A stretch of 24,221 nucleotides of DNA, from positions 1 to 24,221 of IMG/VR virus record IMGVR_UViG_3300042384_000438. One strand, 5' to 3'. The first letter of the stretch is position 1. Each line of letters begins with the position of its first letter. The notes under the pieces were generated by a model. The model had not been told where the DNA came from. It did not search any database and saw nothing but the letters and a program-made list of their open reading frames with translations. This DNA is from a virus. This document shows positions 151-14,572 of the stretch, in pieces. The position numbers and the translations under genes are program-made.

Positions 151-235
151 CAGTATGCTTGGTAAATAATTTCAAATAGTGAAGATTACCCCGTGTCCTG
201 AGTGTTTCCGATATTCGCACTCGGGATGAGATAAG

Positions 236-273
236 GCGACGCAGTTTATCCTTTTTTACTGCGTCGCTTTTTT
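236..273 (+). terminator. Terminator in the leader of the early operon
   Basis: GCGACGCAGT (236-245) pairs perfectly with ACTGCGTCGC (258-267) and is followed by TTTTTT (268-273). It lies only about 20 bases before the first gene (295). An upstream hairpin (197-204 with 218-225, eight pairs, one of them T-G) precedes it. Either transcription from the left ends here and an unseen promoter sits in the last 20 bases, or the terminator is an attenuator that early transcription must read through. Confidence 0.8.
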
Positions 274-294
274 AACACGAGGATTTAACTACTA

Positions 295-591
295 GTGGCA
301 CGCATCATAATTCCAAAACGACCTGTGTCTGTGCGAGAGCTCTCAGAGCTTTTCAGTGTGAACCTGCAAACAGTCTACCGCTGGGAGCGCCAAGGCATCG
401 TCATTGATGGCCGCATTGTGCGCCTCCAAACTTACCGAATCGGCGGGTGCAAACGCATCGAGCCTGAGATGGTGGCGCAGTTCTACGACGAACTTAACCC
501 GCCACCCGTAGAGCGTCGGCTCACAAAGAAGAAAGAAACCAAGCTCGTCTCTGACGCAGTGGAGCAGGCGAGAGCCTGGCTTAACCAGTAA
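295..591 (+). CDS. Small helix-turn-helix DNA-binding protein
   Basis: A 98-residue protein that starts at GTG with a GAGG-type ribosome binding site about ten bases upstream. Residues about 10-60 read as an HTH_17/MerR-like fold: SVRELSELFSVNLQTVYRWE looks like a helix-turn-helix, followed by a short wing-like segment ending in KRIEPEMVAQF. Excisionases and small phage regulators share this architecture. The C-terminal third is Lys/Arg/Glu rich and lacks a recognisable domain. It is the first gene of the early operon and overlaps the next gene by one base (TAATG). Its role could be control of the repeat cluster at 94-150, excision or replication initiation; the sequence does not distinguish these. 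Confidence 0.75.
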   Translation: MARIIIPKRPVSVRELSELFSVNLQTVYRWERQGIVIDGRIVRLQTYRIGGCKRIEPEMVAQFYDELNPPPVERRLTKKKETKLVSDAVEQARAWLNQ

Positions 592-785
592 TGCCGATCA
601 AAGAGAACTACATCGAATATGTTCGTGACCTTCTCTTGCGCATGATTGATCACGCTCAAAGTGCAGACGCACCGAGCACCAAATTTCAACACGGGATCTA
701 TGACGCACGCACAACGGCGCTCATCAACCATATGCTCGAGACCCTCGCGGACGCGATTCTCGAAGACGAGCCACCCCGCTCCTAA
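591..785 (+). CDS. Small acidic protein of unknown function
   Basis: A 64-residue protein whose ATG shares a base with the stop of the upstream HTH gene (TAATG), the same coupling used by several capsid-region genes in this window. It is predicted mostly helical with an acidic C-terminus (LEDEPPRS) and no cysteine, signal peptide or membrane segment. I do not recognise a family. Translational coupling to the HTH protein is the only functional hint. An overlapping ORF in another frame (646-843) lacks a ribosome binding site and is less likely. Confidence 0.55.
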   Translation: MPIKENYIEYVRDLLLRMIDHAQSADAPSTKFQHGIYDARTTALINHMLETLADAILEDEPPRS

Positions 786-788
786 CAC

Positions 789-857
789 CATCGGACACAC
801 GACCGATGCAGTCTCGTCGACTGGTGGAGCGGGAGGGATTTAACAAGGAGGTTTCTC
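789..857 (+). promoter_or_regulatory. Structured GGA-rich leader of csrA
   Basis: Two adjacent hairpins, CATCGG/CCGATG (789-794 with 803-808) and CAGTC/GACTG (809-813 with 819-823), are followed by a purine-rich single-stranded stretch carrying GGA at 826, 832, 836 and 847. The last is inside the AAGGAGG ribosome binding site. A further GGA at 793-795 lies at the edge of the first hairpin loop. CsrA proteins bind ANGGA motifs near ribosome binding sites, so this is a reasonable candidate for autoregulation. The GGA count is partly explained by ordinary purine-rich Shine-Dalgarno context. Confidence 0.45.
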
Positions 858-1040
858 ATGCTTAATTTTACCCGCAGAAGCGGCGAGTCTCTCAGGTTTA
901 TTTCAGGTGAACACACCGTCATCGTGCATCTCACGATGGACGGGCCAAGGATGAAGGTTGCAATCGATGCACCCAAAGCCGTGAAGATCTACCGCGAAGA
1001 ACTGATGATCAAAGAAGCAACTCTGAAAGGGGCGATTTAA
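858..1040 (+). CDS. csrA: CsrA/RsmA-family RNA-binding regulator
   Basis: A 60-residue CsrA-like protein. CsrA dimers bind GGA motifs in mRNA leaders and block or stimulate translation. The hallmarks are present: the first strand MLNFTRRSGESL (1-12) with the TRR-GE-L core, the APKAVKIYREEL segment (38-49) and an Arg at position 46 that aligns with the RNA-contacting Arg44 of E. coli CsrA. Relative to the E. coli protein there are two extra residues in the strand 2/3 region, and the short C-terminal tail ends at residue 60. ATG at 858 has an excellent AAGGAGG site. It sits among early phage genes, so it could act on host mRNA, phage mRNA or its own leader. The host presumably has its own CsrA, which this could mimic or titrate; that is inference. 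Confidence 0.9.
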   Translation: MLNFTRRSGESLRFISGEHTVIVHLTMDGPRMKVAIDAPKAVKIYREELMIKEATLKGAI

Positions 1041-1041
1041 T

Positions 1042-1470
1042 ATGGCAGCGATTCCGAACGACATAAGAGAAGGCATCGAGGCAGCGATCACTCGTGGTCT
1101 GCAAGATGATGTGGTCTGCACTTCCTCCGAGAGGAAGCGCAGGGAGGAATACTTCGCCTCTCTCCCGCCTTGGATGGCCCAGTGTCATCGTCAGGACTAC
1201 GAGTTTGACCCGACCTACGACATCGCCAGTGCGACCTTTGCGCTACCCGGTGGCGAGAAGATCTCAGTAAAGCGGGCGTGGGGCACACTCTATTCAAAGC
1301 CCGGTGAGGTTAGCACCTCGATGCACTTCAAGTATTGGGTACATAACCAATCACGCTGGGCGAAAGCCGACACCTTAGATCATGCAATCTATTGCGCAAC
1401 CGAGCTCACCCGCGAGGACATGATTGCGAAGGCGAAGAAGGAACTCGATGCCCAGGAGGAGTCGGCATGA
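1042..1470 (+). CDS. Phage protein of unknown function (142 aa)
   Basis: A 142-residue soluble protein beginning one base after the csrA stop, with AAAGGGG as ribosome binding site. It has a charged N-terminal helix with ERKRREE at about 30-36, a Trp/Tyr-rich centre (residues about 43-110) with strand-like segments such as SATFALPGG, and a C-terminal Lys/Glu helix. No cysteine motif, membrane segment or catalytic signature is visible, and I recognise no family. Its 3' end overlaps the next gene (ATGA at 1467), so it is translated as part of the early operon. Codon use matches its neighbours. Confidence 0.65.
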   Translation: MAAIPNDIREGIEAAITRGLQDDVVCTSSERKRREEYFASLPPWMAQCHRQDYEFDPTYDIASATFALPGGEKISVKRAWGTLYSKPGEVSTSMHFKYWVHNQSRWAKADTLDHAIYCATELTREDMIAKAKKELDAQEESA

Positions 1471-1769: not shown

Positions 1770-2137
1770 TGAACCTTCCCGAAACGAAACCACGGGTGAC
1801 GATCATCTCGCAACTCTGCACCCGTCAGGGCAAGACCGACATAGGCAAGCCGTATGTGGTCTACCTCAGTGATGGTAGGTGGTGGTTACAGCAAGAGCAA
1901 TCACTCTGGCCCGATCGTGAGCTTACCTTCCTTGAGATGTGGACGCTTCTCAAAGGAGAGAACCACTACAACCTGACGAGACAGGGCACAGCCATGCGGA
2001 TCGATAAGCGCTGGGAAACCCTGCACAGCAAGGCCGAATTCGACAACATCGATCGCTGGGATGAGACCGGCAACATGATGCGGGAAGTCAAAGAAACGCT
2101 CGAGCGACTCATGAAAGAACTGGAGTTGATGAAATGA
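1766..2137 (+). CDS. Phage protein of unknown function (123 aa)
   Basis: A 123-residue protein just before the primase. Two adjacent ATG codons (1766 and 1769) are possible starts; AGGAG at 1757-1761 is better spaced for 1769, so the protein may be one residue shorter. Residues 10-60 contain strands and an aromatic motif (GRWWLQQEQSLWP). The C-terminal 30 residues are a Glu/Lys/Met helix. No known domain is recognised. It overlaps both neighbours by four bases, suggesting it is made together with the primase. Confidence 0.6.
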   Translation: MMNLPETKPRVTIISQLCTRQGKTDIGKPYVVYLSDGRWWLQQEQSLWPDRELTFLEMWTLLKGENHYNLTRQGTAMRIDKRWETLHSKAEFDNIDRWDETGNMMREVKETLERLMKELELMK

Positions 2138-4179
2138 CCGCTAAAGAATGCGCCCTTAAATATCTGGCAATGGGTCTCTCGGTAATCGCTATCGCACCCA
2201 ACGGAAGCAAAGGCCCGGCAACCGTGGTCGGGTCGTGGTTACCCTTCATGACAGGCGCTCGGGCAACCCCGCAGCAGGTCGATGCGTGGTGGCCAGAAGG
2301 AACGAGGAACGGTGTGGCTATCGTGGGCGGGATACTCAGCAACGATCTCGCTGTCATCGACATTGAAACCGGTGACGCTTATGCCCAGTACCGCCAAGAC
2401 TGTCAGCAAGAAGGCTTGCTCTACGCTTTGGATTCGTGCCCTATCGTAGTCACCCCGAATGGCGGCAGGCATATCTATTGCTTTGGTGTTCAGCGTAAGA
2501 ACCTCAAGCTAGCCAAGTCTACCGAGGGCAAGACCTTAATCGAGATTAAGGGATCGAATGGCTATGTCCTGGCACCGGGCTCAACGGAAGAGTGCCACCC
2601 GACTGGGCTACTCTATAGGTGGGAAAACAATTCGCTCTTGGATCTACCTGCACCCGCTCTGCCTGTGGACTCGGACGACTTCGATCTAATGGTCACCGTC
2701 GCAACGATACAAAATGTAGGAAAGTTTCCGGAGAAGTTTACACTTCCGATACAAGCTGGCGAAATCAGAGACAACCGCAAGAGGCCCGGCGATGACTACA
2801 ACGAACGAGCCGAGTGGGCAACGATCTTGCAAGGCGCTGGCTGGGAGATCTCCCGCATCGGTCAGGATAAAATCTACTGGCGCAGGGCTGGTAAAGACGA
2901 TGGCATCTCAGGCACGACCGGGCACTGCCGCACTGATGGCTCTGGCGATATGCTTTATGTCTTCTCATCGAACGCTGCACCCTTTCAAGAAGCCAAGGCC
3001 TACAGCAAGTTTGCAGCCTACACCTTGTTATCCCACGACGGCAACTTCACCGCAGCAACCAGAGCTCTTGCGGGTGCAGGTTTCGGCGAACCGGAAGTGG
3101 AACTTAACTTTCTGCATAAGGCGAAGGCGCCCATCGAAGCGACTATCGTGGAGGCAACCCCAGACCCAGCAACCGGGAGAAGGTTTAAGTGGGGCCGTGA
3201 GATCAAGGCCGCAAACATCGACGGGGTCTGGCACTGGCACGGGTATGTTCGCCCTGGTTGCGTGACCATGCTTTCCGCTTTGTGGAAGGCTGGCAAGACA
3301 ACACTCATCTCACAGCTTCTTCGTGCGTGGGAAACTCAGGAAAGCTTTCTCGGGCAGAAGATAGCCAAGACCCGAGCGCTCTACATCAGCGAAGAAAACG
3401 ATTCAACATGGGAACCAAGGGCCAAGAATTACGGGCTCAACATCAACGATCATCACGGGTGGATCATGCAACCGTTCTCAGGAACGCCGAGCATGGCACA
3501 GTGGCAAACCTTTCTGGGTGAGTGCAAGGCAGACATGGTGGAGCACGGGTTTGATTGTCTTGTTGTAGACACCCTCTCTTCGGTCTGGCCGGTCAAGGAT
3601 GAGAACTCAGCCAGCGAGGTGGGGGCAGCATTTCAAGCCCTCAAGTACTTTGCCAAGGATGGCAAGCATAGCGTCTTGGTTGTTCATCACATGAGGAAAA
3701 GCCAAGGCGCTGATTTTACAGCGGCCCGAGGTTCTGGCGCAGGGTCTGCGGCAGCGGATTTGCTGATGGAGTTCTTTAGAGAGGAGGCTGGTTTTGGTCA
3801 GCGGTCAAAAACGAAACGCGTAATAAAAGGTTCCGGGAGATTTAATGAAGTCACCCCGGACGAGATGATCATCGACTTTGTCGAGGGTGATCTGGTTTGC
3901 CTCGGAGCGAAGGATGAACTCGACCACGAATCGAGAAAGAAATCCATCATCGAGGTACTGAGCGAGGGCGAGTTTATGACACTCGAACAAGTTCAGATCG
4001 CATCAGGTCAGCGAAGAGACACGGTGATCAAGCAACTCGAGGAACTCGTGCGGGGTGGCGAAGTCGAAACCACGGGCGCAGGTACTCGGGGCAGCAAAAA
4101 GAAATTCAGAAAAGTTACTATTCAACAACCGATTCAGAAAAATCTAGGAGATTTCAATGGCGATGGTCAAAGTCTGTGA
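2134..4179 (+). CDS. Primase-polymerase fused to RepA-type ATPase
   Basis: A 681-residue replication protein. The N-terminal part (about 1-180) resembles bifunctional primase/polymerase (Prim-Pol): DIE at 76-78 as metal-binding residues, TPNGGRHIY near 107-115 and KGSNGYVLAPGS near 138-149. The second part (about 350-590) is a RecA-fold, RepA/AAA_25-like ATPase with a P-loop ending AGKTT near 387-391, a Walker B-like CLVVDT near 474-479 and VLVVHHMRKS further on. The P-loop has Ala where the first Gly of GxxxxGKT is expected. Residues about 605-660 look like a winged helix. Such fusions prime and unwind DNA at phage origins. ATGA overlap with the upstream gene; the last 23 bases overlap the next gene. 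No DNA polymerase is encoded in this window. Confidence 0.85.
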   Translation: MTAKECALKYLAMGLSVIAIAPNGSKGPATVVGSWLPFMTGARATPQQVDAWWPEGTRNGVAIVGGILSNDLAVIDIETGDAYAQYRQDCQQEGLLYALDSCPIVVTPNGGRHIYCFGVQRKNLKLAKSTEGKTLIEIKGSNGYVLAPGSTEECHPTGLLYRWENNSLLDLPAPALPVDSDDFDLMVTVATIQNVGKFPEKFTLPIQAGEIRDNRKRPGDDYNERAEWATILQGAGWEISRIGQDKIYWRRAGKDDGISGTTGHCRTDGSGDMLYVFSSNAAPFQEAKAYSKFAAYTLLSHDGNFTAATRALAGAGFGEPEVELNFLHKAKAPIEATIVEATPDPATGRRFKWGREIKAANIDGVWHWHGYVRPGCVTMLSALWKAGKTTLISQLLRAWETQESFLGQKIAKTRALYISEENDSTWEPRAKNYGLNINDHHGWIMQPFSGTPSMAQWQTFLGECKADMVEHGFDCLVVDTLSSVWPVKDENSASEVGAAFQALKYFAKDGKHSVLVVHHMRKSQGADFTAARGSGAGSAAADLLMEFFREEAGFGQRSKTKRVIKGSGRFNEVTPDEMIIDFVEGDLVCLGAKDELDHESRKKSIIEVLSEGEFMTLEQVQIASGQRRDTVIKQLEELVRGGEVETTGAGTRGSKKKFRKVTIQQPIQKNLGDFNGDGQSL

Positions 4180-6176: not shown

Positions 6177-6447
6177 CCAGGACATTCTCGCCCAGGTTGA
6201 TGGCATCATCTCGGAGCGAGGCATCAACTACGGCGACCCGCGCGAGAGCTTTACCCAGATCGCTGAAATTTGGACAACTCTCCTCCGCGGGAAACTTGCA
6301 CCCGGTCAGCGGGTGAGTGCGAGCGATGTGGGATTGTTGATGGCAGCACTTAAGATCGTGAGGCAGTCGAACACCCACAAACGGGACAACCTCGTTGACG
6401 CGATCGGCTACCTGACGATTGTGTCACGACTGGAGGAGCGACCATGA
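6163..6447 (+). CDS. DUF6378-like phage protein
   Basis: A 94-residue protein. The pattern ERGINYGDPRESFTQIAEIW, then DVGLLMAALKIVRQ, then HKRDNLVDAIGYL matches the conserved core of DUF6378, a small helical family common in phage genomes. The YGDP-x-E and HKRDN-x-D motifs recall the acidic helical MazG-like NTP pyrophosphatase fold, but I cannot confirm activity. The start at 6163 has CGGGAG ten bases upstream. It lies between the zinc-ribbon and HNH genes, with a 4-base overlap into the latter. Confidence 0.75.
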   Translation: METNSQDILAQVDGIISERGINYGDPRESFTQIAEIWTTLLRGKLAPGQRVSASDVGLLMAALKIVRQSNTHKRDNLVDAIGYLTIVSRLEERP

Positions 6448-6767
6448 GTGTAATCAAAACAATCAGCGAATACTTTGCCGGGTTGCCTGCCCGCTCACCG
6501 AGATGGGCAGCGGTGCGAGGGGCGCACCTCAAACGCAACCCGACCTGCGCAGCGTGTGGGACTAAGGACAAGCTCGAGGTACACCATATTCACCCATTCC
6601 ATCTTTTCCAAAATCTCGAGCTCGAGCCCTCGAACCTTCTGACCTTGTGCGAGACGGGTGGCAACTGCCACATCATGCTCGGACACCTCAAGAACTGGAA
6701 GAGCTACAACCTCGGTGTAAGAAAAGATGCGGAGGTTTTATTACAGAAAATAAAAGCCAGACCGTGA
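6444..6767 (+). CDS. HNH endonuclease 1
   Basis: A 107-residue protein with a complete HNH signature: His47-His48 in EVHHIHPFH, Asn64 in SNLLTLC, and His76 in NCH. Cys35/Cys38 (CAAC) and Cys69/Cys75 probably bind a structural zinc. HNH nucleases make nicks or double-strand breaks and occur in phages as homing enzymes, packaging factors or recombination aids. This copy is not next to the terminase (a second HNH gene is), so a recombination or homing role is more likely. It starts in an ATGA overlap and its stop TGA overlaps the proposed GTG of the next gene. Confidence 0.85.
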   Translation: MSVIKTISEYFAGLPARSPRWAAVRGAHLKRNPTCAACGTKDKLEVHHIHPFHLFQNLELEPSNLLTLCETGGNCHIMLGHLKNWKSYNLGVRKDAEVLLQKIKARP

Positions 6768-7597
6768 GGTCTGCTTATTACCTTAAGTCCCCCTCGGTGA
6801 TATCTTTCTCGGGTGGTAGAACTTCAGCCTTCATGCTGGCCAAAGTCCTTGAAGCGCATGAAGGCAAGCTCCCTGATTATGTCAAGGTGGTGTTCACCAA
6901 CACCGGGCTTGAGCATCCGAAGACCCTCGACTTCATCGAGCAAATATCAAAAGAGTGGGGCGTTGATATCGTTTGGCTTGAGTACGCAGGCAAAGCTACC
7001 ACCCCACGATGGAAGCTTGTCACCCACGAAACCGCATCACGCAACGGCGAACCCTTCACCGTGTTAATAAAAGAGAGGCAGTACTTACCGAACCCGGTGG
7101 CTAGGTTCTGCACGGTCGAGCTCAAGATTCTCCTTCTTGACCGATGGGCGAAAGATACTCTCGGGGCTGAGTTCCGCAAGCATGATCAGCTTATCGGTCT
7201 GCGCTACGACGAGCCGAGGCGAGTATCAAACATCAAGAAGAACAGGAGGCGAAATCCTGCCGTTACTCCTTTGCATGAAGCAAAGCACACCCTTCAAGAT
7301 GTGACGAACTTTTGGGCAAAGCAATCCTTTAGCTTAGATATCCCGATGCACCAAGGAAACTGCCAAGGGTGCTTTTTAAAAAGCCGTTACAGAACCGACC
7401 TTGTCGCACGGGAAACCCCAGAAGCTTTGAACTGGTGGATCGAGCAAGAGAGATCGATGCTCGGGGTGGCAACAGCAAAGAACCACACCTTCAGGAAAGA
7501 TCGACCCAGTTATGAAAACATCTTGAAGCAATCCAGAATGCAACTCCCAATGTTCCCCGATTTCGATGACACCGTTAGCTGTCATTGCACCGATTAA
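6764..7597 (+). CDS. PAPS reductase/DndC-like PP-loop protein
   Basis: A 277-residue protein from GTG 6764, which forms a GTGA overlap with the HNH stop. Earlier in-frame codons would put the N-terminus inside the HNH gene, and GTG 6797 is another option. The PP-loop SGGRTS (16-21) starts an ATP-pyrophosphatase domain. RFCTVELK (114-121), LRYDEPRR (146-153), NCQGC (199-203) and a terminal CHC (273-275) are the features of the phage PAPS-reductase family. Cys116 with Cys200/Cys203 and a terminal Cys could hold an iron-sulfur cluster as in DndC. Known relatives reduce PAPS or move sulfur onto nucleic acids. A role in phage DNA or RNA thiolation is possible, but no partner Dnd genes are seen here. 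Confidence 0.8.
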   Translation: MRSAYYLKSPSVISFSGGRTSAFMLAKVLEAHEGKLPDYVKVVFTNTGLEHPKTLDFIEQISKEWGVDIVWLEYAGKATTPRWKLVTHETASRNGEPFTVLIKERQYLPNPVARFCTVELKILLLDRWAKDTLGAEFRKHDQLIGLRYDEPRRVSNIKKNRRRNPAVTPLHEAKHTLQDVTNFWAKQSFSLDIPMHQGNCQGCFLKSRYRTDLVARETPEALNWWIEQERSMLGVATAKNHTFRKDRPSYENILKQSRMQLPMFPDFDDTVSCHCTD

Positions 7598-8897: not shown

Positions 8898-9217
8898 GAA
8901 GCCACAAGCCCCCTAGGCATGAGGTCAGGTTTCATGATGCGCCTGGGTGCAAGCCGCCTAGGCTTTGCCCGTCCAAGCGTGGCTACGGTTACCAATGGCG
9001 ACAACTCCGCAAGCTAGTCTTTGCTCGTTCTCCGCTCTGCGTGCGATGCGCAGCGCCTGCAACTGATGTTGACCACATCATCGCAAAGAGTCACGGCGGC
9101 ACCGACTCCCTCGACAACTTGCAGACGCTTTGCCACAAGTGCCACGCCCTCAAAACATGGCATGAAGACAAGGTCGGCGGTGGTTTCGTCAAGCTCTCAG
9201 CGAGGCCTCAAAAATGA
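8894..9217 (+). CDS. HNH endonuclease 2, terminase-associated
   Basis: A 107-residue HNH protein located directly before the small terminase, the usual position of HNH enzymes that help terminase cut DNA in cos-type HK97 phages. Motifs: zinc pairs CVRC (49-52) and CHKC (80-83), Asp60-His61 in DVDHI, Asn75 in LDNLQTLC and His84. RGYGYQWRQLRKLVFA before the zinc site is typical of this group. It starts in an ATGA overlap with the phosphoesterase stop. Its stop lies in a short A/T inverted repeat (9209-9226). Unlike HNH 1, its partner is probably the packaging motor. Confidence 0.88.
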   Translation: MRSHKPPRHEVRFHDAPGCKPPRLCPSKRGYGYQWRQLRKLVFARSPLCVRCAAPATDVDHIIAKSHGGTDSLDNLQTLCHKCHALKTWHEDKVGGGFVKLSARPQK

Positions 9218-14447: not shown

Positions 14448-14474
14448 CGGTCTATCGAAATCAGTGCAGTCTTT

Positions 14475-14513
14475 ACGCACAGTTTCCCGAACAAGGGGCC
14501 TGTGCGTTTTTTT
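14475..14513 (+). terminator. Terminator inside the capsid leader (attenuator candidate)
   Basis: ACGCACAG (14475-14482) pairs with CTGTGCGT (14500-14507), with further possible pairing of the inner CCC and GGGG, and is followed by seven T residues (14507-14513). It lies about 50 bases after the predicted transcription start and before the capsid ATG (14573). Most transcripts from the promoter might end here as an RNA of about 60 bases unless read-through occurs. Confidence 0.7.
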
Positions 14514-14541
14514 ATGTCTCTCACCGAGACTGATGCACTGC

Positions 14542-14565
14542 CCTAATACCGCAAATATTAGGAAG
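14542..14565 (+). promoter_or_regulatory. Hairpin overlapping capsid ribosome binding site
   Basis: CCTAATA (14542-14548) pairs with TATTAGG (14556-14562) around the loop CCGCAAA. The right arm includes the first bases of the AGGAAG ribosome binding site (14560-14565) of the capsid gene at 14573. Folding would partly hide the site, and the GGA at 14561-14563 is a possible CsrA contact. No direct evidence for regulation. Confidence 0.45.
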
Positions 14566-14572
14566 AAATCCA

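Follow-up and report, generated by a model that had tools for sequence, protein, structure and literature searches.

Gene content and context of the csrA locus

The DNA analysed (the window), 24,221 bases long, comes from IMG/VR as a linear fragment, and the interval studied is also covered by a near-identical longer contig (L003/L085, 35.4 kb) and by eight further related contigs. An open reading frame on the plus strand at positions 858-1040, with an ATG start and a TAA stop, encodes a CsrA-like protein of 60 aa (MLNFTRRSGESLRFISGEHTVIVHLTMDGPRMKVAIDAPKAVKIYREELMIKEATLKGAI). The gene is located at the start of a replication-side block, whose first gene (295-591, plus strand) encodes a small HTH protein of MerR/BldC/excisionase-like type. 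In all relatives csrA is adjoined upstream by a gene for a conserved 64-aa protein (591-785, plus strand) and downstream by a gene for a conserved 142-aa protein (1042-1470, plus strand), the ATG of the latter lying at 1042, 2 nt after the csrA stop. The same block includes a primase-polymerase/AAA helicase (2134-4179, plus strand), and the genes found 3' of csrA on this single strand encode the primase/helicase, nucleases, terminase, HK97-type capsid and tail proteins. The earlier note had assigned csrA to an early operon. The placement in the replication-side block was borne out, whereas "early" follows only from the order of the genes (after the integrase and before the primase).

No clear sigma-70 promoter was detected for the block. 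A strong intrinsic-terminator-like hairpin (233-275, plus strand, z -4.5) is found just 5' of it, formed by GCGACGCAGT...ACTGCGTCGC followed by T6 and lying ahead of the first gene, so the operon may need read-through or antitermination. A second terminator, bidirectional in appearance, lies at about 42-70. Moreover, three direct repeats (AGTCGTACCAG / AGTAGTACCAC) with spacings of 9 and 11 nt occupy positions 121-151, in the otherwise empty region 5' of the HTH gene, and could possibly be an operator or iteron. In the relative L083, a TTGACT promoter-like element and a palindrome (GTCTACAACTGTAGAC) are found at 9050-9110, directly 5' of its divergent csrA, and this element is possibly a repressor-controlled promoter. 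Further along the window, a gene at 6749-7597 encodes a PAPS-reductase-like protein with PADLOC matches to SspD/DndC-type phosphorothioation proteins (E 5e-17). Some relatives have it, whereas others, L006 among them, lack it between HNH1 and RusA, and it may be a DNA modification or anti-restriction gene.

In the longer contigs, both near-identical and related, a tyrosine integrase gene lies upstream of the csrA block. Beyond it, a 43-nt stretch is identical in L085 (about 6885-6930) and L083 (about 6285-6330), two contigs with a TerL identity of 89%. This stretch can be read as the 3' part of a tRNA-Pro(GGG) and is likely an attP core; ARAGORN found no whole tRNA there. Since the longer contigs carry an integrase and an attP-like core upstream, the phage is probably temperate.

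The host was sought in two ways. A TerL search of genome contigs for a prophage gave a best match of 51% identity, with matches spread over phyla. With up to 3 mismatches allowed, the attP core had no match among the genomes sampled from Acidobacteriota (247), Pseudomonadota (399), the class of an Anaerolineales genome (120) or Omnitrophota (117). In the phylum to which a Pirellulaceae genome belongs, 4 of 343 sampled genomes had it with 2-3 mismatches, and their order gave no better match. These matches may lean, at most weakly, towards this phylum as the host.

A divergent phage lineage of the CsrA family

The protein matches the Pfam CsrA profile (PF02599) with E 3.3e-11 and 43.4 bits against a cut-off of 27, residues 1-50 aligning with profile positions 1-48, and it also matches the PHROG family phrog_9500, "CsrA-like regulator" (E 6.7e-9). 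A phmmer alignment with E. coli CsrA (1y00) showed T5-R6-R7, G9-E10 and L12 in place, R46 at the position of Arg44 and exactly two residues added between strands beta2 and beta3; alignment with 16 chromosomal CsrA proteins placed this insertion identically. Hence, the profile search supports the CsrA homology proposed in the earlier note, and its description of a complete CsrA-like protein with the TRR-GE-L residues, the Arg44 equivalent and two extra residues was confirmed by both alignments. The likeness to CsrA/RsmA further extends to the length and to the predicted order of the strands and C-terminal helix.

On the other hand, the scores against the NCBIfam CsrA equivalog models TIGR00202 (33 vs 70.1 bits) and NF002469 (40 vs 73 bits) fall below their cut-offs. 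As these are far under the level set for orthologues, the protein is regarded as a member of the CsrA family and not as a CsrA orthologue. Leu4 in strand beta1 is a key residue of known CsrA; here it is replaced by Phe, and in the relatives by Ile, both of them hydrophobic. R6 and the G-E pair are preserved in the window protein, and Arg7 is replaced by Lys in most relatives. The Arg44 equivalent in beta5 is invariant across 23 sequences, and the surrounding PKAVKIYREEL does not vary among close relatives. Even the most divergent copy (L083) reads VVREEI, which retains the RNA-binding arginine and its neighbourhood. Several relatives carry N-terminal extensions (MLTEG, MSTEG, MSEG, MAEG) ahead of the first CsrA strand (L005/L006 7983-8000, L011 3204-3218, L012 5807-5821), which is unusual for CsrA.

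An AlphaFold monomer model (pLDDT 86) included beta2 to beta4 and the C-terminal helix, with beta2 at residues 11-16 and beta3 at 19-28, and puts the two extra residues in a predicted lengthening of the beta2-beta3 hairpin. A Foldseek search of the PDB with this model returned no CsrA structure and is uninformative, since CsrA is an intertwined dimer. The +2 insertion is not unique, as the CsrA proteins of Vibrio phage VvAW1 and Xanthomonas phage PhiXhv-12 carry additional residues at roughly this point of the hairpin. Genomes of the Pirellulaceae (planctomycete) phylum encode several ordinary CsrA paralogues without the hairpin insertion.

Concerning the reality of the gene, csrA is flanked by the 64-aa and 142-aa genes in 9/9 other spanning contigs, that is, in 10/10 phages with the window. 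The copy of G005/L083 is much more diverged, yet it keeps the same position, and the TerL of L083 is just 89% identical; this G005 relative, considered with its frame neighbours, also exceeds the PF02599 cut-off, with a score of 27.8. Nei-Gojobori dN/dS values were 0.02-0.28 in every csrA pair for which they could be computed, and L005 and L006 have identical CsrA cores despite a dS of 0.62. The csrA is therefore a real gene under strong purifying selection, not a chance ORF, and none of the related phages that could be examined lacks it.

A tree was built from 31 sequences and 59 columns, a length at which deeper placement is not resolved. One clade (96/86), set on a long stem of 0.9 changes per column, unites the window protein with its relatives; its weakly supported neighbours are two planctomycete paralogues. 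Most of the phage CsrA proteins sampled cluster instead with the gammaproteobacterial CsrA, those of Pseudomonas, Vibrio, Providencia and Xanthomonas phages grouping with E. coli CsrA. Identity to any CsrA found outside the group is at most 45%; no close kin of the clade was found among 50,697 phage records, and a search of bacterial genomes by peptide patterns confirmed no relative. Judged by its sequence, the window csrA is a divergent, phage-specific and so far undescribed lineage rather than a csrA recently copied from a host.

The view in the earlier note of CsrA as a protein normally belonging to the host has been superseded. A csrA was reported in 30 of 2517 phages in 2020 (PMC7366521), IMG/VR was surveyed for it in 2021 (PMC8450108), and tblastn with E. 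coli CsrA detected it here in 85 of the 50,697 phage records. Phage csrA being already documented, its presence in the window is less surprising than the earlier note stated. RsmM of the Pseudomonas F116 group and the homologues of Vibrio phage VvAW1 and E. coli phage PTXU04 are likewise carried by phages (PMC7366521, PMC11879866), PTXU04 being likened here by description only. Knockdown of the PTXU04 homologue gives smaller plaques (PMC11879866). The 2021 survey came with an anti-CRISPR proposal, and RsmA is a repressor of CRISPR-Cas in Serratia (PMC8450108); the likeness lies in host immunity as a possible target of a phage CsrA. A further likeness, also by description, is with CsrT, a divergent paralogue of csrA that has become fixed on mobile elements, the integrative conjugative elements of Legionella (cited in PMC7366521), although the carrier there is a conjugative element and here a phage.

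The csrA leader and the mosaic of csrA alleles

The csrA leader (786-857, plus strand) is predicted to form two small hairpins and a weak hairpin over the Shine-Dalgarno sequence (loop AACAAGG). The Shine-Dalgarno region, ACAAGGAGGT (843-852, plus strand), is a candidate autoregulatory site present in all relatives. SELEX gave the CsrA consensus RUACARGGAUGU, in which ACA and GGA do not vary (PMC7652899), and ACAAGGAGGU agrees with its core ACARGGAUGU at 9/10 positions, which makes autoregulation of csrA plausible. Unrelated leader alleles are present in the relatives, and this motif is unchanged in 8/8 distinct leader sequences, even where the remainder of the leader has been exchanged. A second GGA (836-838, plus strand), 11 nt before that of the Shine-Dalgarno, could be a second CsrA contact. 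It is kept in the relatives at 10-13 nt, the lower end of the bridging range of 10-63 nt reported for CsrA (PMC7652899). Furthermore, among the 33 leaders of the window, that of csrA is the only one with four GGA within 36 nt, a density reached in 0.05% of 36-nt windows.

These features suggest that csrA probably limits its own synthesis through ACAAGGAGGU, the Shine-Dalgarno sequence of the csrA mRNA. Other factors bear on the conservation of the site: AAGGAGGU is simply a perfect Shine-Dalgarno, which alone explains most of the motif, and recombination at the leader could likewise keep it conserved. Predicted folding gives autoregulation no clear support. Part of the Shine-Dalgarno GGA lies in a predicted stem, and the classic AC/GU-closed SELEX hexaloop hairpin was rejected for this site, with a predicted probability of 0 to 0.38. 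A conserved structured leader was also discarded, as folding was no better than that of shuffled sequences in 2 of the 3 alleles tested (z -1.2 in the window, -0.1 in L002 and -2.5 in L083).

Regarding other possible targets in the phage, ACARGGA occurred in leader position before no other gene among the 33 leaders examined, and most of them have zero or one GGA, accounted for by the Shine-Dalgarno. An Rfam search gave no match near the gathering score. The earlier note had pointed to two leaders as possible targets. The capsid leader at 14454-14572 is indeed strongly structured (z -3.9), its main element being a GC-rich hairpin followed by a U run, but it was rejected as a CsrA target because its only GGA is in the Shine-Dalgarno and none lies in a loop. 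Conversely, the leader at 789-857 folds no better than its shuffles (z -1.2) but holds the best CsrA-type sequence site of the window.

The csrA gene itself is a mosaic. When the window is compared with L006 from codon 2 onwards, identity is 55% over the first 108 nt and changes sharply to 90% over the last 72 nt, and the proteins of the flanking genes are 95-100% identical; the same pattern is seen against L005/L006 together (55% in the first 108 nt, 90% or more afterwards). Leader alleles are shuffled independently of the csrA alleles, since the window has the leader type of L006 but a different start of csrA, and the window and L002 show the reverse. The mosaic of gene and leader indicates that recombination exchanges beta1-beta4 while beta5 and the helix stay fixed.

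Possible role of the phage CsrA

The reading that we favour, with some confidence, is that the gene encodes a working dimeric, GGA-binding regulator of the CsrA family in a probably temperate tailed phage, acting mainly on host mRNAs and probably self-limiting. Family membership, the key residues, purifying selection, synteny and the nearby integrase are observed, whereas the binding of RNA, the formation of a dimer, the targets, the timing and the autoregulation are inferred. The protein would be expressed from the early block beside the lysogeny genes, and its dimer would bind GGA sites in the leaders of host, and possibly phage, mRNAs, which would change the translation of these targets during infection or lysogeny. 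By binding ACAAGGAGGU it would also limit its own production. As few phage leaders qualify, it would act mostly on host mRNAs, and post-transcriptional control of these appears to be its most likely role. The CsrA homology and the phage origin stand, host-directed control as proposed in the earlier note is plausible, and the interpretation given there is supported in part.

The protein could instead regulate mainly phage mRNAs, for instance the timing of early genes or its own synthesis, and hardly touch those of the host. The best CsrA-type site of the window being in the leader of csrA itself would fit this, as would the strict retention of the gene in its block position with the next gene 2 nt after its stop, but the scarcity of ACARGGA and GGA in the remaining leaders and the lack of a loop GGA in the capsid leader make it rather unlikely. 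Less probable still is a decoy or dominant negative that pairs with host CsrA or occupies Csr-type RNAs, releasing the control exerted by host CsrA. A small, divergent protein whose position 4 and beta2-beta3 hairpin are altered could work in this way, and the RNA-binding surface of CsrA is generally shared between both subunits (PMC7652899); nevertheless, a pure decoy would not need the Arg44 equivalent and most of beta5, which are invariant in close relatives.

The retention of the RNA-binding arginine and its surroundings, even in L083, also argues against a domesticated CsrA fold with another function (structural or protein-binding, for instance) that no longer reads GGA RNA. The long stem branch, the scores under the orthologue cut-offs and the N-terminal extensions of several relatives would agree with such a change of function, which we consider very improbable. 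A bolder version of the favoured regulator, to be taken as speculative and rather doubtful, is a phage-specific CsrA with altered RNA recognition, in which alleles of beta1-beta4 are swapped against the fixed Arg44 strand and helix, and which controls itself through the Shine-Dalgarno and rewires translation in an uncultured host while the phage infects it or persists as a lysogen.

The csrA genes of phages, though known, mostly lack an explanation: there is one knockdown phenotype, and no targets were found in the literature. The group described here brings together a divergent csrA, a candidate site in its own leader and natural allele swaps, in probably temperate phages. The retention of csrA, the own-leader site and the allele swaps would make the use of CsrA by phages testable with one protein and one short RNA.
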